DNA from: a virus
Direction: 5' to 3' (one strand)
IMG/VR virus record: IMGVR_UViG_3300030430_003277
Coordinates: 19,675-42,738 of that record
Length of the DNA stretch: 23,064 bases
Shown: piece after piece, positions 780 to 22,849 of the stretch
How positions within the stretch are numbered: position 1 is the first letter of the stretch
Layout of the letters: each line of letters starts with the position of its first letter
Program-made: the position numbers and the translations under genes
The notes under the pieces: model-generated
The model's database searches: none
What the model saw: only the letters and a program-made list of their open reading frames with translations
What the model was told of the DNA's origin: nothing

Positions 780-2357
780 CTATTCCTCCTGTTGTTTTTT
801 CGGTCTGATATAAGGTTTAACTCCTACTTTCTTTTCCTCAAACATTTCACTTAACTTGTTGAATTTATCATTGATTGTCTTTGGTGATTGTCCGATAATT
901 TTAGCCGCTTCATTCAAGACTAACTTTTTCCAAACAAAACCCCCTTCTAATACTTCCTGTGGTTTAGCCCTATCAGTTGCCACTTGATAAGCATGTTGGA
1001 ACTCTTTCCAGTTGCTTTTTGTAATAATAGTTCTTCTATCTGCCTTGATAGCATTTTCTAACCACTCAACCAAAGTAACATAACACTTTCTAACAATATA
1101 TGCTCCTTGTCTAACATTTTGTGGATAGACTACGAACCTCTTGTTCACATCTGTAATATTTTTAGCCATAGCCAAAGTATTCAAAACTGCTAACTTACCT
1201 ATGTATTCTAATAGATTCATTTCAAACAAACGAACCACATTACGAATTTTAGGATGAACATCATTAATGTATTTCAAGATAGAATCGTGAGCCATATCTA
1301 ACGCATCTTTAGCCGATGGATGATAGGTAATAGTATTGAAAGGGTCTTTTCCATTGGCTTCAAATTGAGCCTTAGTTGCCTTGTAGATTTCTAATAATCC
1401 CTTTGCTAAATGTAGCGGAGGTCCTCTCCTTTCTACTCTAGTCCCAAAACCTCCAATGACTTCTTTTCTCATAGCAGTTAGAATATCATCGGGAACATCC
1501 CAAATAAATGGTAAGAATCTTTGGAGAATACCCTTGTCTGCTACTGTCTTCAATAGATGTTCGGGAGGAAATGTAAGAGCAATCATAGTATGCTTTGAAT
1601 CTAAATGAATAGTGGGTTTACCTTTCAATGCTTTAGGATATTGATTTGCTCCACTGTGGAAATTGTTCATCAGTGTTTGGAATAAAATATTCATATTCTC
1701 TTTGTGAGCCTTATCTTTGAAAACTCCACTTCCTTCAAACTCATCAGCAAACCAAATGCCTTCTCCGTGTAGAGGTCCATAATCAATAATCCATCTTTCT
1801 TTCGACATTTCATAGGTTTCGTATGCCTCGTTTACTGCCTGTATTCTTTCATCATCATTGTTGAAATTTCTAGTTGGAGCAATGCCGTTCATTGGGTCGC
1901 CTTCAATCGCTCTCAGTTCTTTTTCAAGAATATCTCCTGCATCTTCCTTGAAATTTTCATTAAAGATATGGTCGCCAACTAAAGACGCAGTAGTATAATC
2001 TGCAAGGTTCAAAACTGCTGATTCAACATAGGGGTCATTCTCTAACTCCTCAAAGATTTTCTTAGCAACGGGAGTAAGGACATACATAACCAATGTAGTC
2101 TTACCCGACCTAGCAGTTTGAATCCAAACATAATGAATGCGAGTATCAGTAGTAGTTTGACCATAAGGTATCTCAATGAACCTCTTTACCAAATCTCCTA
2201 AAATCGAATAGAATCCTATGATTGAAGGAATATTATTGTGCCTTGAATAACTAATGGCAGTCTTTTCCCAATTCCTAACTACCGCAGGTAAATCTATTTC
2301 TCTAACTTGTTGTTGTTCAGCATCTAAAGTTTCATCATCATATCCATATTCATTCAT
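780..2357 (-). CDS. AAA+ ATPase with C-terminal winged helix, candidate replicative helicase (MCM- or DUF3987-like)
   Basis: A 525-aa P-loop ATPase. The Walker A region is QTARSGKTT (residues 80-88), with Gln where the first glycine is usual. Walker B is IWFADEFEG (201-209; D205, E206). A sensor-1-like ALTFPP lies at 260-265, and an arginine-finger-like LQRFLPFIWDVPDD at 278-291 recalls the SRFD segment of MCM helicases and the corresponding segment of DUF3987 ATPases. The last 100 residues hold a helix-turn-helix (LNEAAKIIGQSPKTINDKF), as the winged helix of MCM does. A replicative helicase is the main component otherwise missing beside primase, polymerase, clamp and ligase, so helicase is the best guess (inference). 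It overlaps the ERCC4 nuclease upstream by 4 bp. The AAA+ call is strong; the helicase role is moderate. Confidence 0.65.
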   Translation of the reverse strand: MNEYGYDDETLDAEQQQVREIDLPAVVRNWEKTAISYSRHNNIPSIIGFYSILGDLVKRFIEIPYGQTTTDTRIHYVWIQTARSGKTTLVMYVLTPVAKKIFEELENDPYVESAVLNLADYTTASLVGDHIFNENFKEDAGDILEKELRAIEGDPMNGIAPTRNFNNDDERIQAVNEAYETYEMSKERWIIDYGPLHGEGIWFADEFEGSGVFKDKAHKENMNILFQTLMNNFHSGANQYPKALKGKPTIHLDSKHTMIALTFPPEHLLKTVADKGILQRFLPFIWDVPDDILTAMRKEVIGGFGTRVERRGPPLHLAKGLLEIYKATKAQFEANGKDPFNTITYHPSAKDALDMAHDSILKYINDVHPKIRNVVRLFEMNLLEYIGKLAVLNTLAMAKNITDVNKRFVVYPQNVRQGAYIVRKCYVTLVEWLENAIKADRRTIITKSNWKEFQHAYQVATDRAKPQEVLEGGFVWKKLVLNEAAKIIGQSPKTINDKFNKLSEMFEEKKVGVKPYIRPKKQQEE

Positions 2358-3049
2358 TGTCTAACCTCCTTATTTGAGTTAAAAGCCGATAATATCCTAT
2401 CAGCAGTGGTATCTCCAATACCATCTAGAGAGCATAACTCTCTTTTATCGCAATCTCCTATCTCCATAAGAGAGCCATATTTCTTGAGCAACATTTTTGC
2501 TTTCTTTTCGCTAACACCTTTTATTGATGCTAACATGTTTATTCTAATATCATCTGATGTAAATCTCTTAAACAGATGAGGTTTAATTGGCGACCTTTCT
2601 ACTGGTTGCATTTTAGCAACGCTACAAATAATAGACGAGGCCGCATATTCATCTATTACCCATATTGGTTTAATATCAGAATCAAGAATAATTCTTCCTA
2701 TTGCCCCATAGAATTTGTTTGTAAGTAATTGCATCTTTCTTTGTCTTGGCATGTTGTTATACTTAGCAGAATAACTAGTATAACTTAATGCATCTCTCAA
2801 TGTCCCGTAAATAATTACTACATTAGTCTTGTAACATCTATCCATGTTGTCTAATTGAGTCCAAAGTCTCTTACTGATAACAGATGATAAGAAATCATGT
2901 GTGGATTTTGCTTCAAAGCATACATCTCCAAACACATAATCTCCTACTTCTAGCCACTTCTTTTCAGTAATCAAATTAAATTTAGCGGCTTTGGTTTCCA
3001 CTTCTTTGGTAAGACCCGAAGTTTCTCTACTATCAATAATTAACTTCAT
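2354..3049 (-). CDS. ERCC4/XPF-family structure-specific nuclease with tandem HhH domain
   Basis: A 231-aa protein with the architecture of a short archaeal XPF: an N-terminal ERCC4 nuclease domain and a C-terminal helix-hairpin-helix pair. Visible nuclease motifs are IIDSRET (D6, E9), VGDYVFGDVCFEAK (G36-D-Y38, E46 and K48) and D52. The classic ERK core is EAK here. HhH elements are IKGVSEKKAKMLLKKYG (about 174-190) and LDGIGDTTADRILSAF (about 208-223). Such enzymes cut flaps, forks and branched DNA, and crenarchaeal short XPF needs PCNA, which it binds through its own PIP box. No PIP box is visible at either end of this protein, but the gene directly upstream encodes a peptide with two. A GAGGA ribosome site precedes the ATG. 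Confidence 0.88.
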   Translation of the reverse strand: MKLIIDSRETSGLTKEVETKAAKFNLITEKKWLEVGDYVFGDVCFEAKSTHDFLSSVISKRLWTQLDNMDRCYKTNVVIIYGTLRDALSYTSYSAKYNNMPRQRKMQLLTNKFYGAIGRIILDSDIKPIWVIDEYAASSIICSVAKMQPVERSPIKPHLFKRFTSDDIRINMLASIKGVSEKKAKMLLKKYGSLMEIGDCDKRELCSLDGIGDTTADRILSAFNSNKEVRQ

Positions 3050-3051
3050 GT

Positions 3052-3138
3052 CTATTCCTCAAATACTAATCCAAAATCTTCTAATGTAGTTTGTCCTTCT
3101 ATTCTTAATCCAAATTCAAACAGTGTAGTTTGTTTCAT
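3052..3138 (-). CDS. 28-aa microprotein with two PIP-box-like motifs
   Basis: A very short ORF, ATG at 3138 and TAG at 3052. The peptide holds two copies of one motif: QTTLFEFG (residues 3-10) and QTTLEDFG (16-23), each followed by L. Both match the archaeal PCNA-interacting consensus Q-x-x-L-x-x-F, and the first closely resembles the QATLFDFL box of Pyrococcus RFC large subunit. Evidence for translation: AAAGGAG lies 9 nt before the ATG, inside the end of the primase gene; ATG and the primase stop overlap as ATGA; and the ERCC4 ATG follows 2 nt after the TAG. It could be a bivalent PCNA adaptor for the adjacent nuclease or a clamp inhibitor (inference). No other domain is present. The ORF call is good, the PIP function untested. 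Confidence 0.7.
   Translation of the reverse strand: MKQTTLFEFGLRIEGQTTLEDFGLVFEE
3067..3132 (-). repeat. 39-nt-period tandem duplication inside the PIP microprotein gene
   Basis: Two 27-nt units begin with CAAACTACA and end with TTTGGATTA (minus strand, starting at 3132 and 3093). The period of 39 nt is 13 codons, so the duplication keeps frame and produces the two QTTLxxFG motifs. The units differ mainly in the middle (CTGTTTGAA against TTAGAAGAT). Confidence 0.75.
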
Positions 3139-4244
3139 CTTTTCATCTCCTTTGTGTAATCTTTTAGTCTCCAACATGTCCCAACGCAATAACCATTAGC
3201 AATTAGTTTATCACAGTTGGGGAAGTTATAATTTCCATTCACTACAAAACCAACTCTATATTTTGTTATTGCTTCATCAAAATCTAACCATATGTTATGA
3301 GTTTCATGTAAATGTTTTATCTCAGCAGTAATTTGATTAATCATATTCAATCTTGTAGACATGTTTGGAGTAACTTGTGTATCGGTAAAGCCGACATTAA
3401 AATCTGACCATAGTAATAGGTCCTTATACCAACTAACAAGATATGCTCTTGCTTCATCTGTTGGATTTTCAACCATGATAGAACTATACATACATGGGGG
3501 AAGTGGTAAGTTACCTGCATTGATAACTTCTGCTTCAATTTCTGATTCTTCTACTTGTGGCACTTCGGGCCAATCAACAAGAACCGAACCATGCATAATA
3601 CTCCCCATCGGGTTAGGGTATTTAGAATAAGTGAGTATTTCACTCACTGATTTACTAGTAATATCTTCTCTAGTAAGAGGCACTGAATAATAACATCCAT
3701 CTCCATAAGACGCTTTCATATTCATAGTATTACGAATACGCCTTAGTCTTCTAGGAGAAATCGCTGAACTATCTAGAGTCCCATTAGAAGTAAGGGCTTT
3801 CATCTGATTAAAGAAAGCAGTCAATCTACGAATGTCTCTAACAGGTATGGTTGTTCCATATACATAGACATGAAAACCTCTCCCCGAAAATGAAATATCA
3901 TACAGATAGTCGTGTCTCTCTAAATAATCTGAAACTTGTAGCAAATCATCCAAGCATAATTGAATCTGAGATTCACTAATTATTTGCGCTCCTGTCCTAT
4001 TATCCACTTCACCATGATGTGCATCAAAGTCAAGAAATACTCTATCTAGAATAACCGTATCTGTTACGGCTTGTTTGTTAGTGTATTGAGCATAATCATA
4101 AACTGAGGTATAACAATTCATCTTTCCATTATGAGTCTTAACCCATTTGTTAAACTCATCTTGACTATGAACCAACTTTCTCTTACTAGCAAAAGTATTA
4201 GTTTGTTTGTTAGCACTTGGCCATACTTCTCTAGGAAACTTCAT
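3135..4244 (-). CDS. Archaeo-eukaryotic primase, apparent PriS catalytic domain fused to PriL-type Fe-S domain
   Basis: A 369-aa primase. The AEP catalytic domain occupies about residues 1-215: motif I VFLDFDAHHG (D72, D74), motif II SFSGRGFHVYVYG (S120, H125) and a third acidic residue in GTLDSSAIS (D158) followed by the Arg-rich RRLRRIRNT. The C-terminal third has four widely spaced cysteines: C251 in LPLPPCMYSS, then C344, C353 and C357 in NCDKLIANGYCVGTCW. This spacing is like the 4Fe-4S domain of the primase large subunit, so one polypeptide seems to combine both, as in plasmid and virus primase-polymerases such as the pTN2 protein of Thermococcus. It would make primers for the viral replisome. 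The PriS call is firm; the PriL-like domain is inferred from cysteine pattern and position. The stop overlaps the PIP microprotein ATG. Confidence 0.85.
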   Translation of the reverse strand: MKFPREVWPSANKQTNTFASKRKLVHSQDEFNKWVKTHNGKMNCYTSVYDYAQYTNKQAVTDTVILDRVFLDFDAHHGEVDNRTGAQIISESQIQLCLDDLLQVSDYLERHDYLYDISFSGRGFHVYVYGTTIPVRDIRRLTAFFNQMKALTSNGTLDSSAISPRRLRRIRNTMNMKASYGDGCYYSVPLTREDITSKSVSEILTYSKYPNPMGSIMHGSVLVDWPEVPQVEESEIEAEVINAGNLPLPPCMYSSIMVENPTDEARAYLVSWYKDLLLWSDFNVGFTDTQVTPNMSTRLNMINQITAEIKHLHETHNIWLDFDEAITKYRVGFVVNGNYNFPNCDKLIANGYCVGTCWRLKDYTKEMKR

Positions 4245-5237: not shown

Positions 5238-5964
5238 TGGATGCCCTAACTGGTTCCAATTGGAAGTAATTAGAATCGGGGTAATACCACGCCCAATGAG
5301 TAATAGGATTCATAGTAACATCGGGGTCAGCATCCATCAATACTTTGTAGAAAGCCATTTCATTTCTCATATGCGATTCTTTCCTATCCTTCCAAACTCC
5401 CGTCTTCAATTCAACGGGTATGTAACCTTCTCCTTCTTGGAATACTCTATCTATAATACCTTGAATATGAACAGTATAATCTCTTTGAAGATGGAAGCCT
5501 CTCTTTGCAGGTTTGCCCGAAGCCGTTACTGCGGCTACATAACTGCTAATCTCTAGTTGAGCATTGCATCTAATTTCATTACCAACAGGTAGATATGTAG
5601 GTAAGGTGTTTGCTGATTTTGATTTGAGGAATCTCTCCGTTTCAAATGCTGACATTTTCTGATACACTTCACCATAATCATCTATTGGGAAAAGACCAAT
5701 ACAATATTCATACAAAAGATTCTCATCTAATCCCTCTGCTTTCTTTAACTCAAACTCATTATAGAAATCCTCGTAAGCATTGTGAACAATTGAACCTCTA
5801 GCCATTGCCGCATTTGGTTCTGACTTTCTACCTTCGATATACTGAAACTCATATTGCTTTTTACAAAACTCAAAAGTATTCAGTGAAGATTTTGTAACCT
5901 TCAATAAAGGCATAGTAGGGTCATCCATCCATTCAGCATTCCATTGATATGTATATTCTGTCAT
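5209..5964 (-). CDS. Cas4/RecB-like PD-(D/E)xK nuclease, main body (Fe-S tail in a different frame)
   Basis: The nuclease core is visible; numbers are from the upstream ATG at 5973. FEFCKKQYEF holds the first Fe-S cysteine (C37), RGSIVHNAYEDFY holds the motif I His (H64), GIIDRVF holds D175, YIPVELKTG holds E188 and K190, and HMRNEMAFYKVLM is a QxxxY-like motif. This is a metal-dependent exonuclease of the Cas4/AddB type, usually stabilised by a 4Fe-4S cluster. I place the start at ATG 5964, which overlaps the polymerase C-half stop as TAATG, though ATG at 5973 is in frame. The ORF ends with NENNIPEDC, before the remaining three cluster cysteines, which follow in the +1 frame at 5088-5237. 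Location beside polymerase B suggests a role in replication or recombination. There is no CRISPR array. Confidence 0.85.
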   Translation of the reverse strand: MTEYTYQWNAEWMDDPTMPLLKVTKSSLNTFEFCKKQYEFQYIEGRKSEPNAAMARGSIVHNAYEDFYNEFELKKAEGLDENLLYEYCIGLFPIDDYGEVYQKMSAFETERFLKSKSANTLPTYLPVGNEIRCNAQLEISSYVAAVTASGKPAKRGFHLQRDYTVHIQGIIDRVFQEGEGYIPVELKTGVWKDRKESHMRNEMAFYKVLMDADPDVTMNPITHWAWYYPDSNYFQLEPVRASNENNIPEDC

Positions 5965-6893
5965 TAAAACCACTCATCCAATTCTCTTTGTTTCCCATCT
6001 TTTCTTATATCGTTAATGTCCCAACCCATTGCATCATAGATGGGCTTGGCCTTTTTCAGAACTTCCGACTCGGCTAACGATGGCCAATCGGGTTCATAGT
6101 TTTCTAGTTCATTTAGATTTTTTACTGCGATATATCCCGCAGGTTTCATTTCACCTTTTATGTTGGTGAAGGTATTTGGCTGAACCAAACCATTGAATTT
6201 ACATTTCATATGATAAAATGAATCATCAATTTTATCTTGGGGTTTTACATGTTCATTGTAATATAATACCCCTGCGAAACCTCCACCAAAAGAAGGTCTT
6301 TTACCTTCTAAGGTTGTGAGGTCAGTTAGTTTAGCATTACAATTGTCATTTTCACACAAAGCATCGGGGACAATACGAAGTAACTTTCTGACATATTCTA
6401 CATCGTATTTTCTTTTACATCTACATTTTAGTTTTCTTCTTTCATCTTTGTATCTACTTCTTTTAACTAGGTCTAGTTTTTCAACTCTACCTTCTAAAAC
6501 ATCAGTGTAAATATCTCTAACTCTTTTGGTTATTTCTTCTTCTGTCTTCTGTTTAACCCACATTTCTATAACTTCTTTTTGAGTATCTTTCGCTATCTTA
6601 GATTCAGCGATTCTTTTCAATGAAAAGCCAGTAGCGAAAAATTCTGGTTGATGTAAATGCACACCATCTTTCCAAGAAATAAAACCTGCATTTCTATTCT
6701 TTGTTGCTCCTACTCCTAGAACCGAATAATATTTTTCAAACTCTAAATCCATAGGATGATTTTCTAAACCCATGATGTTAGGAAATACATTTTCTTGAAT
6801 GTGTTCATTCAATATCTCTCTAACCTCTAAAGCCTTCTCAATAGAGGGAACAGGAACATAAAGAGAATCAGTATGTGCATAAACTATTTTCAT
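5964..6893 (-). CDS. DNA polymerase B, C-terminal half (palm motif C and thumb)
   Basis: This 309-aa protein begins exactly at the strand carrying catalytic motif C of B-family polymerases: MKIVYAHTDSLYV. Family members read YxDTDS, so the first Asp is His here (H7) while the second, essential Asp is kept (D9). Further family features are GATKNRNAGFISW (about 62-74, equivalent to the KKRYA/KxY motif) and GFSLKRIAESKIAK (about 89-102). A cysteine-rich stretch in the thumb (CRCKR, then CENDNC, about residues 157-190) may bind zinc. The last residues, QRELDEWF, match a PIP box (Q-x-x-L-x-x-aromatic-aromatic). It must pair with the N-half at 7451-9118 to give an active enzyme. It overlaps the MazG-like gene by ATGA. 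Confidence 0.9.
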   Translation of the reverse strand: MKIVYAHTDSLYVPVPSIEKALEVREILNEHIQENVFPNIMGLENHPMDLEFEKYYSVLGVGATKNRNAGFISWKDGVHLHQPEFFATGFSLKRIAESKIAKDTQKEVIEMWVKQKTEEEITKRVRDIYTDVLEGRVEKLDLVKRSRYKDERRKLKCRCKRKYDVEYVRKLLRIVPDALCENDNCNAKLTDLTTLEGKRPSFGGGFAGVLYYNEHVKPQDKIDDSFYHMKCKFNGLVQPNTFTNIKGEMKPAGYIAVKNLNELENYEPDWPSLAESEVLKKAKPIYDAMGWDINDIRKDGKQRELDEWF

Positions 6894-7207
6894 CTTCTAT
6901 CACCATTACCTTTGATAGTATCACTTAGCATTCTTGCTCCCAGTTTATTCAGATTAACTTCTGCAACTTCTTGTAGAGTATAACCACATTCAAATGCTAG
7001 ATTAGAAAGATACCATAGAACATCTCCTAACTCATATAGTAAATCTTCTTTAAGAGAAATACTATTATCTCCTCTGATAAACTTCTTAATCTTTTCAGCG
7101 ACTTCTCCCGCTTCACCGCATAATCCTAATGCAGTATAGGTAAGCCCATCATCAATAGGATATATTGCAGTCTTTCTTGCTTCATTCTGATAATCGTTTA
7201 ATTTCAT
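6890..7207 (-). CDS. MazG-like nucleotide pyrophosphohydrolase
   Basis: A 105-aa all-alpha NTP pyrophosphatase. GEAGEVAEKIKK (E32, E35) and YELGDVLWYLSNLAFECG (E59, D62) give the ExxE...ExxD metal-binding pattern of the MazG/dUTPase-2 superfamily. These enzymes hydrolyse (d)NTPs to NMP and pyrophosphate, removing non-canonical nucleotides or, in phages, altering host nucleotide or alarmone pools; the substrate cannot be read from sequence. The size fits single-domain viral MazG proteins. It lies between the two halves of polymerase B, coupled by ATGA to the C-half and separated by 1 nt from the upstream zinc protein. Confidence 0.88.
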   Translation of the reverse strand: MKLNDYQNEARKTAIYPIDDGLTYTALGLCGEAGEVAEKIKKFIRGDNSISLKEDLLYELGDVLWYLSNLAFECGYTLQEVAEVNLNKLGARMLSDTIKGNGDRR

Positions 7208-7208
7208 T

Positions 7209-7454
7209 CTATTCCTCCTTTGGGACTAATGGAGTAAGTTGCCCGTCTATCATAGCCCAATGTTCAAATTCATCATTGGGATGAGGATTTATTACGGGTA
7301 TAAGATTAGAACATTCTCTTAGAGAACATTTGATACAATACCCTTTGATTGCTCCTTCGACCATCCATTGCGGTGAAAAGCCCATTAATACTGGTTCAGA
7401 TAGTATTCTTCTTTTACATTTTTTAAAACTGCATTTTCTCCCTTCTAATTTCAT
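7209..7454 (-). CDS. Small cysteine-rich, probable zinc-binding protein (81 aa)
   Basis: Five cysteines stand in a zinc-finger-like arrangement: C8 and C13 (CSFKKC), C40 and C43 (CIKC) and C48. The N-terminus is basic (KLEGRKCSFKKCKRR), suggesting nucleic acid contact. No named family is recognised. The ATG overlaps the stop of the polymerase N-half (ATGA), and the gene is one of two inserted between the polymerase halves. It could be an unrelated insert or a factor for the split enzyme; nothing in the sequence decides this. Confidence 0.7.
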   Translation of the reverse strand: MKLEGRKCSFKKCKRRILSEPVLMGFSPQWMVEGAIKGYCIKCSLRECSNLIPVINPHPNDEFEHWAMIDGQLTPLVPKEE

Positions 7455-9118
7455 TCCAATTCCCTCACTTTAAATGCGGCTTCTCTAATTGCTTCTCTAG
7501 CACTAGCAGTAATACTAGCGGCTAAATCTAAATCATACCAACCAAAACCAACTGCCGCAGTTGCTCCGTATAGAGATGCTAAAAGTCTCTTGGTTGCCAT
7601 TTGCATTGAATTCCACTTAACATATTCTTTCTTGTTACCACTCTGTAATGCATCTAACATATTACTCTTGTATTGTTTTCTAAGAGGCTTTAGAGTTAGA
7701 ATCATTCTTGGTAGTAATCCTAATTCATCCGTTTTGTAATATTTCCAATCCTCAGTAATAGTTTCTCCGAGACTTCTTGGAGTCCTAATATTGACTGCAA
7801 ACTCGGTTGGTTCAATGGATTTTGTTTCCCATGAAATATTCCTTGCTACGGCAACTGACGGATATAGCGAACTAAAATCAAAAGCGGCAACGCCTAGATG
7901 TAATCCATTCGTTTCTTCTTCTAGCGGATTGTAAATCATTGCACCATCGTATTTTTCCTTACTACCCTTTTTACCAGTAGGGGCTTTCCATGTTGCGTTT
8001 CTCATGAAATAAGGTGCGGCTATCATAGTAACGAAGAAACAATCTTCAAACGGTGCTTTCACAATCTTTTGAACTGCCAATACGCCTTCACTCAATCCCA
8101 TTTCTTCATCTATCTTATGTAGTAATTCTGCATCTTGAAGACAATACTCTAGGTAATTTTGAGTATCTTCTAGCCATGCTCGATTAAAGAATTCATTCCT
8201 ATCAGTAAACTTAGATTCTTTCTTCTTAGTTTCTCCAACAGATACACTTGCACAGTAATCTAATGAGTTACTTGGTAGTGTTCCTCTTTGAGCATCCATC
8301 CATTGTCTTTCAAATGCTAAGTCAAGATTAAGACATAATCTACCACGAATCGGTTGTTCGATGTTAGAATACTCAACACTACCTAAAGCATTAAATCCTA
8401 CATTCTTTACTTCCTTATGTGGAGATAATTTTCTTGGGTCAATCTTGTTAGCAAATAATCTTTTAATCAATTGGGGAATATCAGATTTCAATCCCCACCA
8501 AGCAATCAGCATATCGGGGTCTTCTTCTTGTAATACATTTACGAAATTTTCAAGCATATCTTTTTCACTATTAAATATCGCTATCTTATCTGATTGTTTC
8601 CAATGTAAATGAGAAGGAGCATCGGGCATCCACGCCCATTGTTGAGATTGATTACTGTAATTATCATACACCGCAATAGTAGTAATAGCATCTTCATGCT
8701 CACTACCTTTAGGCATCCATTCCATATCCCAATACCATTTTCTCATTTCATATTCGGGGACATTCTCTAATTCATCTACGCAATATCTACGACAGATAGG
8801 AACATCTCCTTCCCATGTAGCGACAAAAGGCTTTATTGCATTGTATTTATCTTTAGGGTGAGAATAGAAAACCTTAGTCAAAGATTGTCCTTGAAGGTTT
8901 TTGTAATCACCAGTTTTGTATTCATAGAATCCAGTTTGCTTTATTGACTTACCACCTATAATCTTATGAGATGTTTTGTAAGTCTCAGGTCTTTTATCTG
9001 TTGAACGAATAAAGAAATAAGGATTGAAACCTTCAATAGACTTCTCCTTTCTTTCTCTATTCTCATCCCTCCATCTAATCTTGATAGTCTTATCTGATTC
9101 TATATAACTGATAATCAT
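7451..9118 (-). CDS. DNA polymerase B, N-terminal half (exonuclease, palm motif A, fingers motif B)
   Basis: A 555-aa protein. The proofreading exonuclease has WYWDMEWM (Exo I, D131 and E133), AWWGLKSDIPQL (Exo II, D213, with Trp where Asn is usual) and YLEYCLQDAELL (Exo III, Y325 and D329). Polymerase motif A is AAFDFSSLYPSV (D414), and motif B is MATKRLLASLYGAT (K510, Y517; the usual KxxxNSxYG Asn is Ala). The protein stops after REAIREAAFKVRELE, the helix that normally leads straight into motif C. Motif C is the start of the gene at 5964-6893, two genes further on. A clean ATGA overlap with the next gene argues that the stop is real. Together the halves add to 864 aa, a normal length for the family. 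Confidence 0.93.
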   Translation of the reverse strand: MIISYIESDKTIKIRWRDENRERKEKSIEGFNPYFFIRSTDKRPETYKTSHKIIGGKSIKQTGFYEYKTGDYKNLQGQSLTKVFYSHPKDKYNAIKPFVATWEGDVPICRRYCVDELENVPEYEMRKWYWDMEWMPKGSEHEDAITTIAVYDNYSNQSQQWAWMPDAPSHLHWKQSDKIAIFNSEKDMLENFVNVLQEEDPDMLIAWWGLKSDIPQLIKRLFANKIDPRKLSPHKEVKNVGFNALGSVEYSNIEQPIRGRLCLNLDLAFERQWMDAQRGTLPSNSLDYCASVSVGETKKKESKFTDRNEFFNRAWLEDTQNYLEYCLQDAELLHKIDEEMGLSEGVLAVQKIVKAPFEDCFFVTMIAAPYFMRNATWKAPTGKKGSKEKYDGAMIYNPLEEETNGLHLGVAAFDFSSLYPSVAVARNISWETKSIEPTEFAVNIRTPRSLGETITEDWKYYKTDELGLLPRMILTLKPLRKQYKSNMLDALQSGNKKEYVKWNSMQMATKRLLASLYGATAAVGFGWYDLDLAASITASAREAIREAAFKVRELE

Positions 9119-9307: not shown

Positions 9308-10090
9308 TTAAATCCCTAACCTTGGCGCACGAACCAATGCGCTATTTTCCGTTATCATTACTATGGGTTGGTCATCCCCAAGAAATATATTTACAACTTC
9401 CTTCTTTCCAAAGAATTTGTGCATAGGTCCACTAAACAATACTGTTGCTCCTTCTCCGATAATATTTGAAAAGGCAACTTCTTCTCTATAAGAAGAAATC
9501 GTTTGCTCAGAGGATATAATAAATTTAGGCCGACTAACTTCATCTCCTTCATTGAAATCTAATTTATAGATTCCATTGTTTACAATCTCACATGCATCAA
9601 TAGCACTATGAAGTTCTTCACCTGTTAATTGTATTCCACAACTAAAATCTATACTGCCAATTGTAGGTATTCTTGTTAAATCTTCTTCAAAGGCTATCGG
9701 CCATTGAGCAACAAATCTTTCAATTCTACCATGAAAAGGATGCTCAACAACAATTGGCATTGTTGCTCTTTTACCATCTGATTTCATTACGATAGTGTCT
9801 CCAATCTCAAAAAGAATATCATCATTCATTTTACTTAGATACTTTTTCATCATATCAATATCTAAAACAAATGAGCCGTTATCTTCTGTTTCTACTGGAA
9901 TAGATTTTATCGCAGTAGTAGATTCATCTGAATTGATTAACAATAACTGATTATCGTTTAATTGAAAATGAATATATTTACCCAAAGACTTTGAAGATAG
10001 TCCACTCGTTGTCGCCCATTTTCCTTTTAGTTCGACATTTTTCATTGCTTCTACTATGTCTTGTTTGTTTACTTGTATTTGCATTTTCAT
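9308..10090 (-). CDS. PCNA-type DNA sliding clamp
   Basis: A 260-aa protein from ATG 10090, chosen because AAGGTG lies 5 nt upstream; the frame extends to a GTG at 10126 without a ribosome site. The length matches archaeal PCNA (about 245-260 aa). The C-terminus, VVNIFLGDDQPIVMITENSA followed by RAPRLGI, matches the PCNA ending in which the PI dipeptide and laPRi tail are conserved, and the N-terminal helix IVEAMKNVELKGKWATTS and the FVLDIDMMKKYLSKM segment fit the two-domain clamp. It would encircle DNA as a trimer and tether polymerase, ligase and nucleases. Candidate partners with PIP-like motifs are the polymerase C-half, the large clamp-loader subunit and the 28-aa microprotein. It has its own leader. 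Confidence 0.88.
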   Translation of the reverse strand: MKMQIQVNKQDIVEAMKNVELKGKWATTSGLSSKSLGKYIHFQLNDNQLLLINSDESTTAIKSIPVETEDNGSFVLDIDMMKKYLSKMNDDILFEIGDTIVMKSDGKRATMPIVVEHPFHGRIERFVAQWPIAFEEDLTRIPTIGSIDFSCGIQLTGEELHSAIDACEIVNNGIYKLDFNEGDEVSRPKFIISSEQTISSYREEVAFSNIIGEGATVLFSGPMHKFFGKKEVVNIFLGDDQPIVMITENSALVRAPRLGI

Positions 10091-11210: not shown

Positions 11211-12443
11211 TCAATCCCAACTGAACCAGTCATCATTAGAATCTTCAACAGGTTCACTGTAAACATCAGCCGAACCATGTCTATCTACTACATGTAGTCC
11301 TAGGACATTGATAGTAGCGGGTCTAATTTGACCTTCTTCATCTACTCCTTGTGAAGTCCTTCCACTTACGATTACATTACTACCGATACCAAAGTCAATA
11401 TCAATTGACGGGGGAATCCAAGCAGTTACAGATGAATAACCTTCACCTTCATAATCAAAATCAGCATTCAAATCACTTAGATGTAATACTCTTGTTCCGT
11501 TAGAGTTAGGCTCCAACTTCATGTTAGCGACATTACCATCAGTAATAACCAACTTATCAGCATAAGCCTTATGTGAATTCTCTGAATGATAATCGTCTAA
11601 TGATACTAGAGATGATACTTTATCACCTAGAACATTTTGAATCACTTCAAGTAGACTTTCATCACTATCTAGATATTGCAAAGATTCGGCAGTGCTTCCA
11701 TCCTTTCTAGCACTTAGAATCTTAGGATTATTAGAATTAGGAACAACATCTAATGAACACCAAACAAAGGTATTCGGTGAGAAGTTCTTCGCCATTTCTC
11801 CGTTCAATCTCAGTTGATACTCGGAATATTCTGCATTATCTTCAAACTTACCTACGAAGTATAGAGTCTTAGACCATCTTTCAGCAGGTAGAGGTCTACC
11901 GTAGTTAGGATTTGCTTGACCGCTTTGGAAAGCCTTTCTGTTATCAACAGGTATAATCCACCTATCATCATCAACTTGCATAGGTTCAGTATTAGGTAAT
12001 TTCTCCATAATCTTCGATGTGACTTCTCCATCACGAAGAATGCTAACCTCGTAGCGACCATCACTAAGTAGAACTGCAACTGCAATTTTACCACTGTTAA
12101 GTGCGGTATTTGCATCTCTTTGATATTCGGCTAAAAGAGTATTTCTATTCCTCTCCTCCCAATTGGTAGCATTGTCAGCCGCCCAAAAGAAACCATTAGC
12201 CCTTTGTGTGTAAGTAGGACCAGTGTATTCTTGTTGAGTTTCACCTGTCTTTTGTTCGTTCATCATTCTTGTTCTTGCTTGACTAAACTTAGACCTAAAT
12301 ACGCTTCTAGCCACCTTTAGGCCATTCTCCGTATTCACATCCAAGTTATTATCAGTGACAATACCATTGAAGATAGCGGTTGCCTCCTCAACAGTAACAC
12401 CGATAATTTCAGCATACTTTTCAATTTCATTATTCATTTCCAT
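11211..12443 (-). CDS. RPA-like single-stranded DNA-binding protein (candidate)
   Basis: A 410-aa acidic protein. The N-terminal 45 residues have a helical UBA-like look (YAEIIGVTVEEATAIFNGIV). The rest has beta-rich segments of OB-fold type: LYFVGKFEDNAEYSEYQLRL (about 193-213) and, near the end, SSVTAWIPPSIDIDFGIGSN followed by VIVSGRTSQ (about 340-370). The C-terminus is an acidic tail ending DDWFSWD, comparable to the acidic aromatic tips of SSB proteins that recruit partners. Its place beside the Sak4-like ATPase, PCNA and clamp loader supports an ssDNA-binding role. It has a strong ribosome site (GGAGG, 6 nt before ATG). Family membership is inferred from pattern and context. Confidence 0.6.
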   Translation of the reverse strand: MEMNNEIEKYAEIIGVTVEEATAIFNGIVTDNNLDVNTENGLKVARSVFRSKFSQARTRMMNEQKTGETQQEYTGPTYTQRANGFFWAADNATNWEERNRNTLLAEYQRDANTALNSGKIAVAVLLSDGRYEVSILRDGEVTSKIMEKLPNTEPMQVDDDRWIIPVDNRKAFQSGQANPNYGRPLPAERWSKTLYFVGKFEDNAEYSEYQLRLNGEMAKNFSPNTFVWCSLDVVPNSNNPKILSARKDGSTAESLQYLDSDESLLEVIQNVLGDKVSSLVSLDDYHSENSHKAYADKLVITDGNVANMKLEPNSNGTRVLHLSDLNADFDYEGEGYSSVTAWIPPSIDIDFGIGSNVIVSGRTSQGVDEEGQIRPATINVLGLHVVDRHGSADVYSEPVEDSNDDWFSWD

Positions 12444-13445: not shown

Positions 13446-14288
13446 CTAAAACCATCCTTCTAATCTTAATGTTCTATCAGGAGTAATTGGAGCATTCCTC
13501 GCTCTTTTCTTATCCTTGATACCAACAATTCTAGTTTCTTCACTTTTCAATCTCTTTGTCGCCCATTCTTCAAACTCCGAATCCTGTAACAATTGAGGCA
13601 GTAAATAGCCTTGATTCGGTTTTATCTTTAACTTTCTGAGGATATTCGGGACTTTTGAATAGTTGCCTCTTTTTGGAAAGGTAGTTTTAGAATACATCTT
13701 TCCATCATGTGAGTAAGTCAATAACTCGTAAAAATAATCACTTGACCATCTTCTCTTTACTCTACCATCTACAAACACTAATTTGTTAGGGTGAATATTT
13801 AGACCGAGCCAAGTCATGATTTGAGTATCAGCAGGTCTGTTATGTTTGAAGTTTTCAAGCACTTGAGAACGATTCGTATTCTTTAGGTAATCATTTACCA
13901 ATTCAAAAATACTCATTTCTATATTATGAGGTTTATTACTTCTAGGTGCTAATTGTTTTAGTGCATCAAGTGAATGACAAACACTACCTGCTCTTTTTAC
14001 TCTACAACAGTTTTTAATTTCAGTCGGAATACTCTTTTCATCATTTGATGTAAGAACAATCTGGTGTTTACAATTTCTAATGACATTCATTATTACATCC
14101 TTATTAGGCTTGTAATGAACTTCTTCAATGATAACATCGGTTGTAACACTTTTCCAATCTCTGTCTTCTATCTCATTTGCATAGAAGATAAGAGAATCTT
14201 CTCTAGACATTGATTTAGCAATTGTTGTTTTTCCTGTTCCGCTTTTTCCTGTAATTAATATTGGTCTTTCTTTTTTACTCATATCCAT
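13446..14288 (-). CDS. Second clamp-loader-like AAA+ ATPase (candidate RFC large subunit)
   Basis: About 280 aa. Walker A is ILITGKSGTGKTTIAK near the N-terminus, a Walker B-like strand VIIEEVH has Glu for the usual Asp, and sensor-1-like QIVLTSND follows, as in RFC large subunits (TGxxGxGKTT and TSND). The C-terminal 140 residues are basic. The last nine residues, RTLRLEGWF, resemble a PIP box (L-x-x-W-F; Thr at the Gln position). Archaeal RFC-L also has a basic C-terminal region ending in a PIP box. It lies directly upstream of RFC-S. It is shorter than cellular RFC-L (about 400-500 aa). The frame starts with TTG at 14297; ATG at 14288 or 14282 seems likelier, and I use 14288. Confidence 0.72.
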   Translation of the reverse strand: MDMSKKERPILITGKSGTGKTTIAKSMSREDSLIFYANEIEDRDWKSVTTDVIIEEVHYKPNKDVIMNVIRNCKHQIVLTSNDEKSIPTEIKNCCRVKRAGSVCHSLDALKQLAPRSNKPHNIEMSIFELVNDYLKNTNRSQVLENFKHNRPADTQIMTWLGLNIHPNKLVFVDGRVKRRWSSDYFYELLTYSHDGKMYSKTTFPKRGNYSKVPNILRKLKIKPNQGYLLPQLLQDSEFEEWATKRLKSEETRIVGIKDKKRARNAPITPDRTLRLEGWF

Positions 14289-14293
14289 TAAAC

Positions 14294-14698
14294 TCAAGTC
14301 AATAACCCCTTTATTTCTAATATGCGCTCAAAACCTTTTTGTTTCAAGTGATGCTTATTAGAAACAAGCGTCAAAACTTCTTCAAAGGAATTGAATCTAT
14401 CATTTGATGTAGGCTCATCTGAATCTATTAATCTGAAAAACTGAATCAGATTATCTACATTCGTCAATCTTAGCAAAGGATAGGGCCTACCTTCTTTCTC
14501 CTTTGCTTTGTAATAGGACTGTATTCCCTTGTCCTCTAGGGTTCTTTGTAATTTAAGAAGAAATAAATTATTCTTTGCTCTAAAATTGACTCTCAATCTT
14601 ATCCTATATCCTATTGATTGTCTATCATCTTTTGTGATTTCAATTTCGGGATATGCTAATGAATAAATTACTCCTTCAAGTTGTCCTTGCGTAAACAT
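14294..14698 (-). CDS. LAGLIDADG-fold protein with a degenerate catalytic motif
   Basis: A 134-aa protein that fits a single LAGLIDADG unit. LEGVIYSLA (residues 8-16) aligns position by position with the LAGLIDADG helix but has Tyr and Leu at the two Asp positions, including the metal-binding one. It is followed, as in the family, by a beta strand (GYRIRLRVNFRAKNN), a helix (LFLLKLQRTLEDKGI), a strand pair (PYPLLRLTNVDNL) and a final helix (IQFFRLI). Homing endonucleases of this fold cut long DNA sites; without the acidic residue this copy should only bind. It is a free-standing gene between clamp-loader and unknown genes, not in an intron or intein. Domestication as a DNA-binding regulator is possible (inference). 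Confidence 0.6.
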   Translation of the reverse strand: MFTQGQLEGVIYSLAYPEIEITKDDRQSIGYRIRLRVNFRAKNNLFLLKLQRTLEDKGIQSYYKAKEKEGRPYPLLRLTNVDNLIQFFRLIDSDEPTSNDRFNSFEEVLTLVSNKHHLKQKGFERILEIKGLLT

Positions 14699-19595: not shown

Positions 19596-19800
19596 TTTTG
19601 TGACACTCCTTTTCTAAAATAATAAATCCTTCTCTTGATGCTGACCCATAAACAACATCAACACCAACTTGGTATTTTTGATAAATCATGTTGGCCACCA
19701 TCAAAGCGGTTTCCAACCAATCATCGGGCATATCATATGGGATACCCTTTTCGTTCTTCAACTGTATTGCTAATGTTGGGAACATTAATTCTTCACTCAT
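19588..19800 (-). CDS. Hypothetical protein (70 aa)
   Basis: Not recognised. The start is ATG 19800, with GGAGAG 6-7 nt upstream; the frame reaches an ATG at 19824, inside the upstream zinc-finger gene. The protein has a helix (DDWLETALMVANMIYQKYQV) followed by a strand (GVDVVYGSASREGFIILEK). Its first 14 nt with the preceding five A residues are the same as at the next gene start at 19595, so the two genes share an initiation region by duplication or convergence. Confidence 0.55.
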   Translation of the reverse strand: MSEELMFPTLAIQLKNEKGIPYDMPDDWLETALMVANMIYQKYQVGVDVVYGSASREGFIILEKECHKNE

Positions 19801-21526: not shown

Positions 21527-21753
21527 TCCTTCACCACCTTACTACAAATTACATGTTTGTGAACTGCGAAAAATTCACCGAGTTTAATCTTCTTATTCGG
21601 TTGATAATAAATCTCATCACCAACATCTATTCCTTCTACATCAGGACCAACGGAGACAACTTCTCCCTTGTGGGTTTCACTCATTACAAATGAACCAACC
21701 TTTGATTCTGATTCTTTCAATACTACAAATTCTCCTATTGCTTCTAACTTCAT
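21523..21753 (-). CDS. groS: GroES-like co-chaperonin (76 aa, shortened)
   Basis: The GroES order of elements is visible: VVLKESESK strand, a mobile-loop segment around VGSFVMSETHKG (about 19-30), GEVVSVGPDVEGIDVGDEIY (30-49) and a C-terminal strand ending CSKVVKE. The GroEL-contacting hydrophobic triad would be FVM (22-24). The protein is about 20 residues shorter than E. coli GroES (97 aa); the loop after the triad and the roof hairpin region are reduced. It is encoded directly before groL with ATGA overlap, the normal order for this pair. The call depends partly on that context. Confidence 0.85.
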   Translation of the reverse strand: MKLEAIGEFVVLKESESKVGSFVMSETHKGEVVSVGPDVEGIDVGDEIYYQPNKKIKLGEFFAVHKHVICSKVVKE

Positions 21754-22286
21754 TCTTCTTCTCCTCCATTTAATTCTACTAGCCTTTTCTTGGCATAAGT
21801 ATAATGTGTCGCTTTATTGGAAGAAGTGTTCATCCAAGTTTGATGTTCTCCATCTCCTAAAACGATAGCACTAATCATGATAGGTTTCCATGTGTTGATT
21901 GTTTTCATATCTGTTCCACTGAAATACGCTGAACCGAAAGGATGAGTATGTATCCAACATTTAATCGGCAACTTCATTCCAACAGGGTCTTCCATAAATT
22001 CAACAAATGAAAATGTCCCAAAAGAAATAAACAACTTATCGTTATTGTCTATCACCACTTGGACTTCTCTTGGTTTATCAAAAGCAGTCATACTCATCTG
22101 CCAAATAGTTTCAAGGAAAACACCTCTTTTCTCTTGGAAGATTGACAGTAATCCCGATGCTTTCTTTGGATGGTCAAAGGACCATTCTATTCTTTCTTTC
22201 CAATCAGTCAAGACAACAATATCTTCTGAATTTGTATAATGGGGAGTATTCTTTAGGTAATCCTCTACTAATTGATTAGTATCCAT
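21750..22286 (-). CDS. JAB1/MPN (JAMM) metalloprotease-like protein
   Basis: A 178-aa protein with an exact JAMM zinc motif, H-x-H-x7-S-x2-D: IHTHPFGSAYFSGTD (H113, H115, S123, D126). A glutamate upstream in RGVFLETIWQ (E59) may be the catalytic base. The strand before (LPIKCWIH) and after (KPIMISAIVLGDG) fits the MPN core. JAMM enzymes cleave isopeptide or peptide bonds after ubiquitin-like proteins. Its neighbour upstream is an E1/ThiF-like protein, coupled as TAATG, a pairing found in prokaryotic ubiquitin-like and cysteine or siderophore sulfur-transfer systems. The C-terminus reads VELNGGEEE. The substrate is unknown. Confidence 0.88.
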   Translation of the reverse strand: MDTNQLVEDYLKNTPHYTNSEDIVVLTDWKERIEWSFDHPKKASGLLSIFQEKRGVFLETIWQMSMTAFDKPREVQVVIDNNDKLFISFGTFSFVEFMEDPVGMKLPIKCWIHTHPFGSAYFSGTDMKTINTWKPIMISAIVLGDGEHQTWMNTSSNKATHYTYAKKRLVELNGGEEE

Positions 22287-22849
22287 TAAATATTCACCAC
22301 TTTGTAATCTGAAACATCATTCTCATCAACAAACCATCTTTGCATCCATTCAGCCGCCATACCTGCTATTGCTACATGAGTAAAGTGCAAACCTTCTTTC
22401 TTGCCTTTCCAACTATCTCCTTGACATGAAAAACTTCCATCGGGTCCTGCAAGCACAACATCATACATGTTCTTAGGCGTTAGATAACTAATGTAAGCAC
22501 CATTACGACCTTGCGCTCTCAAGTCTAACCATTTAACTGATGACCTATAAAGTAGCCTTCTTACATCTAAATTATCCGCACAACAGATAACTAAGTCATA
22601 ACCTTGAATTTGTTTTTCTGTTAGAACCAAAAAAGGTTCAGCCTTAGCCACTGACTTGTATCTATTCTTCATAGCAAATACTTTCTTATCATCAATCTCG
22701 TTTAATTCAAAATTCTGATAAGGTATATTCTTCTTTTCTACAATATCGGGGTCATGTGCCGTAATCTTATACAATCCCGTCTTATCTAAAAGAGGGATTA
22801 GAAAACTTCCAATTCCACCTGTTCCTATAATCATTACTTTTCTTTTCAT
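22286..22849 (-). CDS. E1/ThiF/MoeB-like adenylyltransferase
   Basis: A 187-aa Rossmann protein. The nucleotide-binding motif is IIGTGGIGSFL (G9-S15), followed by ITAHDPDIVEKKNIPYQNF (D33, N41, Q45), which is the E1-family D...vxxxNLxRQ segment with the Arg missing. ICCADNLDVRRLL (D92) matches the conserved xTDNxxxR stretch. A possible catalytic Cys is C142 in SFSCQGDSW. The CxxC zinc pairs of full ThiF/MoeB are absent, and the protein is shorter than ThiF (about 250 aa). Such proteins adenylate the C-terminal glycine of a ubiquitin-like or sulfur-carrier protein. It is cotranscribed with the JAMM protease. No ubiquitin-fold partner is recognised in the window. Confidence 0.85.
   Translation of the reverse strand: MKRKVMIIGTGGIGSFLIPLLDKTGLYKITAHDPDIVEKKNIPYQNFELNEIDDKKVFAMKNRYKSVAKAEPFLVLTEKQIQGYDLVICCADNLDVRRLLYRSSVKWLDLRAQGRNGAYISYLTPKNMYDVVLAGPDGSFSCQGDSWKGKKEGLHFTHVAIAGMAAEWMQRWFVDENDVSDYKVVNI

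Follow-up and report, generated by a model that had tools for sequence, protein, structure and literature searches.

The closest described counterparts of the peptide reported here are proteins that act on sliding clamps. TIP, the Thermococcales inhibitor of PCNA, is a small archaeal protein of 64 residues with an N-terminal PCNA-binding (PIP) motif, and it inhibits PCNA-PolB and PCNA-FEN1 in vitro (PMC4929162). The C-terminal peptide of p21 also competes for PCNA through a PIP motif (PMC6204406), and S. pombe Spd1, whose structure with PCNA (6qh1) appears in our fold matches, is a further parallel. Among viruses, Gp168 of phage Twort inhibits the sliding clamp of its host (PMC11139829). Here we describe a viral gene that the original prediction had read as a microprotein made of two PIP motifs and almost nothing else; the gene is real, and its product, with two PIP-like motifs, is under selection.

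The gene lies in a window of 23,064 nucleotides, the whole stretch of DNA that was analysed (positions 19,675 to 42,738 of IMG/VR record IMGVR_UViG_3300030430_003277), and all coordinates below refer to that window unless a locus is named. The source record, a 66.9-kb virus, carries the module that marks magroviruses (order Magrovirales), namely a split PolB, PCNA, RFC-S, ligase, ERCC4 and GroEL/GroES, together with JAB and ThiF genes, and this gene set fits magroviruses as described (PMC10768690, PMC10160649); INPHARED searches returned no close magrovirus record. By analogy with published magroviruses, the host is presumed to belong to the order Poseidoniales. Dependence on host replication factors is probably slight or absent in aoguangvirids, according to their ICTV profile (PMC10768690). 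PolB is encoded in the window by two ORFs with a MazG gene and an 81-aa ORF in between (5964-9118), a split already known for Aoguangviridae, and its C-terminal half (5964-6893, minus strand) ends in the canonical PIP QRELDEWF. The PCNA predicted at 9308-10090 (minus strand) was correctly identified as to fold: its AlphaFold model (pLDDT 86.5) has Haloferax PCNA as best PDB match (Foldseek E 5.9e-12), and its tail reads LVRAPRLGI. In the RFC-L position, a clamp-loader-like AAA protein (13446-14297, minus strand) ends in TLRLEGWF, without Gln. The protein encoded at 11211-12443 has an acidic, SSB-tail-like C-terminus, DDWFSWD, and its relatives end in DWF or similar. JAB-like and ThiF/E1-like genes adjoin each other at 21750-22849, and the tandem-PIP ORF is found near such genes in other clades.

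The microprotein ORF (MKQTTLFEFGLRIEGQTTLEDFGLVFEE, 28 aa) spans 3052-3138 on the minus strand, stop codon included. Its ATG (3138-3136) follows a ribosome-binding site, GGAG (3147-3150, minus strand), at a distance of 8 nt, which agrees with the good ribosome site claimed for it, and its orthologs within the same clade, clade A, likewise have GGAG or GGAGG upstream. Coupled overlaps had been proposed, and this stands for one neighbour: the TGA stop of a primase-like gene (3135-4244, minus strand; PHROG primase match) overlaps the microprotein ATG as ATGA, whereas the ERCC4 and HhH nuclease gene (2354-3049, minus strand) is closely spaced, with its ATG at 3049, 2 nt past the microprotein stop, and its ribosome site within the last codons of the microprotein ORF. 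The first motif, QTTLFEFG (3109-3132, minus strand), and the second, QTTLEDFG (3070-3093, minus strand), occupy residues 3-10 and 16-23 of the 28. The 39-nt duplication suggested as their origin is borne out, the copies being identical at 27 of 39 bases, a value that none of 20,000 codon shuffles reached; the repeat is old and diverged, since most close relatives show the same difference between the two motifs. Both motifs, and those of aligned relatives, have the Gln at position 1, the aliphatic residue at position 4 and the aromatic residue at position 7 that form the core of a PIP box. The second aromatic residue of the QxxhxxAA pattern is replaced by Gly at position 8 in both window motifs and in most copies of the microprotein, and the motifs stand away from the extreme C-terminus, where archaeal C-terminal PIP proteins carry theirs (PMC6881253). 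Such motifs make the client pocket of a sliding clamp the probable binding site. Chance would rarely produce such an ORF: first-order Markov shuffles put the expected number of short two-PIP ORFs in the window at 0.045, where two are observed, and shuffled relatives yield about one per 2.5 Mb. For the second of the two, at 22157-22279 on the plus strand, no support was found.

Three pattern scans of IMG/VR, taken together, recovered short ORFs with two PIP-like motifs on 45 contigs, representing about 33 distinct peptides. With a nucleotide pattern that demanded two Q..L.[ED][FY] motifs at a spacing of 13 residues, 30 loci were obtained, and at 28 of them a short ORF begins with Met directly ahead of the first motif; when the spacing was left free the count was 37, of which 36 were short tandem-PIP ORFs; and a scan that admitted any residue at position 6 gave eight, all found already. 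F or Y at position 7 was obligatory in the two main scans, and a separate scan for W-type tandem PIPs produced nine matches, none of them a tandem-PIP ORF. Magrovirus-like replication genes are visible on the stretch read at 43 of the 45 loci; as to the remaining two, L229 has a weak JAB match alone and the L235 stretch is too short to show replication genes. A profile search matched each of 22 virus records, which served as positive control, once and only once, and gave no match in 194 Poseidoniales genomes; when 2.0 Mb from one Poseidoniales genome was scanned directly for the motifs, no tandem-PIP ORF was found, and a PDB search with the family profile returned nothing meaningful. Motif spacing across the family is 10-15 aa, which leaves 3-8 residues between motifs, and these linker residues vary freely. 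One family has three motifs (L238/L240), and in another the motifs are joined to a CxxC segment (L231-L233, L242, L243, L245).

The gene occupies at least four positions: between primase and ERCC4, after PolB, near ligase and JAB/ThiF, and between RFC-S and the homolog of the 11211-12443 gene, often in translational coupling with genes of the replication module. Clade A comprises ten distinct peptides, that of the window included, encoded between primase and ERCC4, and in one of its genomes two Zn-ribbon-like ORFs are inserted behind the microprotein gene. Residues Q3, T5, L6, E8 and G10 of the first motif and Q16, L19 and D21 of the second are invariant in this clade, and position 7 of each motif is solely F or Y. 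Loss or frame disruption in close relatives would have spoken against the gene, and within the clade of the window the ORF is intact, with frame and position conserved. The sister clade (L090-L095) lacks it and has a 29-37-aa peptide with one transmembrane segment in the slot between primase and ERCC4; in more distant ERCC4 relatives the slot is empty or holds an unrelated ORF. No convincing tandem-PIP ORF was found in seven group C records of 92-97 kb (G010, G014, G015, G016, G017, G019, G020) or in the 73-kb sister record G025, the three matches in G010 and G014 being low-complexity chance ORFs without an ATG start, and in these eight records the microprotein is dispensable or replaced. Group C records without the tandem peptide encode a 73-78-aa protein with a host-type PIP end, QTSLQDF, QTSLDDF or QTSLSDF (L262:11084 in G015, L274:26 in G019, L283:2845 in G020), a possible functional replacement. 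On a PolB tree the microprotein-positive rows are the deepest clade, clade A, three other lineages and clade B, a supported branch within group C, which is negative otherwise; L098 is labelled as lacking the gene there only since its locus ends inside primase. Given this scatter, the gene was either gained several times or lost many times.

Selection acts on the motifs themselves. In four clades the core motif codons have a pN of 0-0.035 against a pS of 0.3-0.6, whereas pN/pS at the non-core codons is about 0.1-0.7, all of these values being simple pairwise counts and not estimates from a likelihood model. The purifying selection that the original prediction had asked for at the Q, L and F positions is thus present, and it is strong; these codon counts place the constraint on the motif residues, beyond the reading frame alone. 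This pattern weighs against the idea that the ORF is a leader whose translation merely aids that of the next gene. The start of the ORF does overlap or abut the primase stop in clade A, and the ERCC4 ribosome site lies in its last codons, but a leader would scarcely show amino-acid selection concentrated on the motif core, nor would it be expected to recur before unrelated genes, and we find this explanation hardly credible. Origin as a read-through or frameshift tail was also considered and is not general: the frame relative to primase varies within clade A, and the ORF that follows PolB is in frame after one stop in L202 and L206 and out of frame in L244.

The gene adjoins primase and ERCC4 in the window and in several clades besides, which suggests another role, that of an adaptor which supplies a PIP in trans to the primase or to the nuclease. 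The window's ERCC4 indeed lacks a C-terminal PIP, as had been noted, and recruitment of this nuclease was one of the actions first proposed. However, the gene is placed elsewhere in other clades, the peptide has no extra segment with which to hold a partner, and relatives without the peptide carry no compensating PIP on ERCC4: among 80 relatives no C-terminal PIP was found on this protein, and most of them also lack a peptide in the position between primase and ERCC4. Placement is therefore not tied to ERCC4, and we regard an adaptor as very improbable. The related possibility that the peptide is a PIP tail relocated from ERCC4 was ruled out, as the ERCC4 of relatives is PIP-less with or without the peptide.

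If the peptide binds a clamp, the clamp could be that of the host or that of the virus. The original prediction named both; the host side is favoured by motif type, and the viral side is the main rival. In six host genomes FEN1 ends in QTSLFSF, QRSLFSF, QPTLFDF or KPTLFDF, and in seven the DP2 subunit of PolD ends in QLSLSDFL, QMSLSDFL, VMTLSDFL, VMTLGDFL, VMTLEDFL or VMTLSDFI. The motifs of the microprotein are of this type, with F at position 7 and no second aromatic residue, and they are unlike the Q..L..W[FW] tail of the viral polymerase: canonical PIPs make up 27 of the 33 distinct viral PolB C-termini, and in every one of these 27 position 7 is W and the next residue F or W. The clamps differ as well. 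Of the five host PCNAs read, four place an aromatic residue ahead of LAPR (YYLAPR, YFLAPR) and the fifth has Leu (FLLAPR), whereas in the viral PCNAs read that position, which we take to be the equivalent of human PCNA Tyr250, is aliphatic.

The deepest clade, in which the gene follows PolB, is informative here. Its PolB is a single ORF that ends in MPKSYF, QPKAYW, KPKGYW or PKAYGWW, with no canonical PIP, and the ORF at the clamp position, which adjoins this unsplit PolB (L202:9390-10145, L238:3049-3825, L233:1709-2545), ends in LLVIIDQ or similar, without Ala-Pro. Homology of that ORF to viral PCNA is shown by hhalign (E 2.5e-6), and the Foldseek matches of its model, a poor one of low confidence (pLDDT 53.5), are clamps. 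The microprotein of this clade retains canonical PIPs of the form Q..L.[ED][FY]. A peptide with canonical PIPs, kept beside a clamp that appears to have no Ala-Pro tail and a PolB that has no canonical PIP, favours host PCNA as the target.

A microprotein that binds and regulates the viral clamp, whether by freeing PolB from it, limiting its loading or switching its clients, would accord with the gene always lying inside the viral replication module and being coupled to it, and with the Ala-Pro tail that viral PCNAs keep in most clades. Motif type and the deepest clade argue against it. The RFC-L tails, which we read through a targeted search (L411-L428; L252, L255, L259, L265, L273, L277, L281, L284), can be brought forward on its side. 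In the positive clades read they end in TLRLEGWF, TLKLEGWF, VSLNEW, VGLSRWLD, TTLSKWLD, KLSDYY or TTLNDYI, none with Gln at position 1, whereas in the seven negative group C records they are Gln-containing motifs of the F/Y type. Such tails imply that viral clamps, too, may accept F/Y-type motifs, and the absence of Gln alongside the microprotein could mean escape from self-inhibition. However, this pattern is confounded by phylogeny and has an exception in the negative sister record G025, whose RFC-L ends in TLRLEGWF. On balance this indirect evidence makes us lean towards the clamp of the host, and we regard regulation of the viral clamp as unlikely, while keeping it as the main rival.

We therefore consider it fairly probable that the microprotein is a decoy that occupies host PCNA in the manner of p21 or TIP while the virus relies on its own replisome, and such an action, foreseen in the original prediction, is the best-supported reading. 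The peptide would sit in the pocket of host archaeal PCNA to which FEN1 and DNA polymerase D of the host attach, both enzymes would be displaced, and host replication or repair would stop, while the viral genome would be copied with the clamp, clamp loader and WF-tailed polymerase of the virus. The presence of two motifs on so short a chain would raise the effective affinity by rebinding or would cross-link two rings. Adjacent PIP pockets of a PCNA trimer are about 50-60 Å apart, so that a linker of 3-8 residues could not reach two pockets of one ring; the proposal that the peptide clamps two protomers is accordingly unlikely for a single ring, and the peptide would more plausibly rebind at one pocket or cross-link two rings. 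Action as a ring opener, in which one PIP anchors the peptide and the remainder packs on PCNA and breaks the trimer, has a precedent in TIP, whose PIP is N-terminal and which disrupts the PCNA trimer (PMC6204406, PMC4929162). In the microprotein, however, no helix-length segment follows a single PIP, a second PIP standing there instead at a spacing of 10-15 aa, and the linker residues are free to vary; ring opening is thus distinctly improbable. We also propose, more tentatively and as something short of an even chance, that a tandem-PIP decoy has been repeatedly gained or kept, at one copy per genome, and that the changed pocket of the viral clamp and the WF-type tails of the viral polymerase spare the viral replisome, which would amount to a self/non-self code written at the level of motifs.

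The viruses concerned resemble viruses of archaea that rank among the most abundant in the sea, and a decoy of this kind offers a concrete hypothesis of the way in which lytic viruses of archaea halt host replication. If true, the microprotein would be a natural minimal PCNA inhibitor, and it offers a simple test of how viral and host clamps are discriminated. It also illustrates that virus genes of 25-30 codons can be detected by combining a motif pattern with selection. No viral peptide of tandem-PIP form was found in the open-licence literature searched. To our knowledge, no virus microprotein family made of little but PIP motifs has been known before, and this would be the first.

Compared with the known systems, the microprotein has the PIP-type motif in common with several and the architecture of none. 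TIP is cellular and found in Thermococcales only, and it combines a single N-terminal PIP with a partial PH-like region in some 64 residues; in contrast, the microprotein has 28 residues, with a second PIP where TIP has that region. p21 and Spd1 are eukaryotic, carry their PIPs inside larger proteins and have cell-cycle functions. Gp168, although a viral inhibitor of a host clamp, works by filling the DNA channel of the bacterial beta-clamp and makes no use of a clamp-binding motif (PMC11139829). In motif type the microprotein matches the PIPs of Poseidoniales FEN1 and PolD DP2, which follow the same form, Qx[ST]Lx[SDE]F, and likewise lack the second aromatic residue; those motifs are single and stand at the very C-terminus of enzymes, whereas the viral peptide carries two and little besides.
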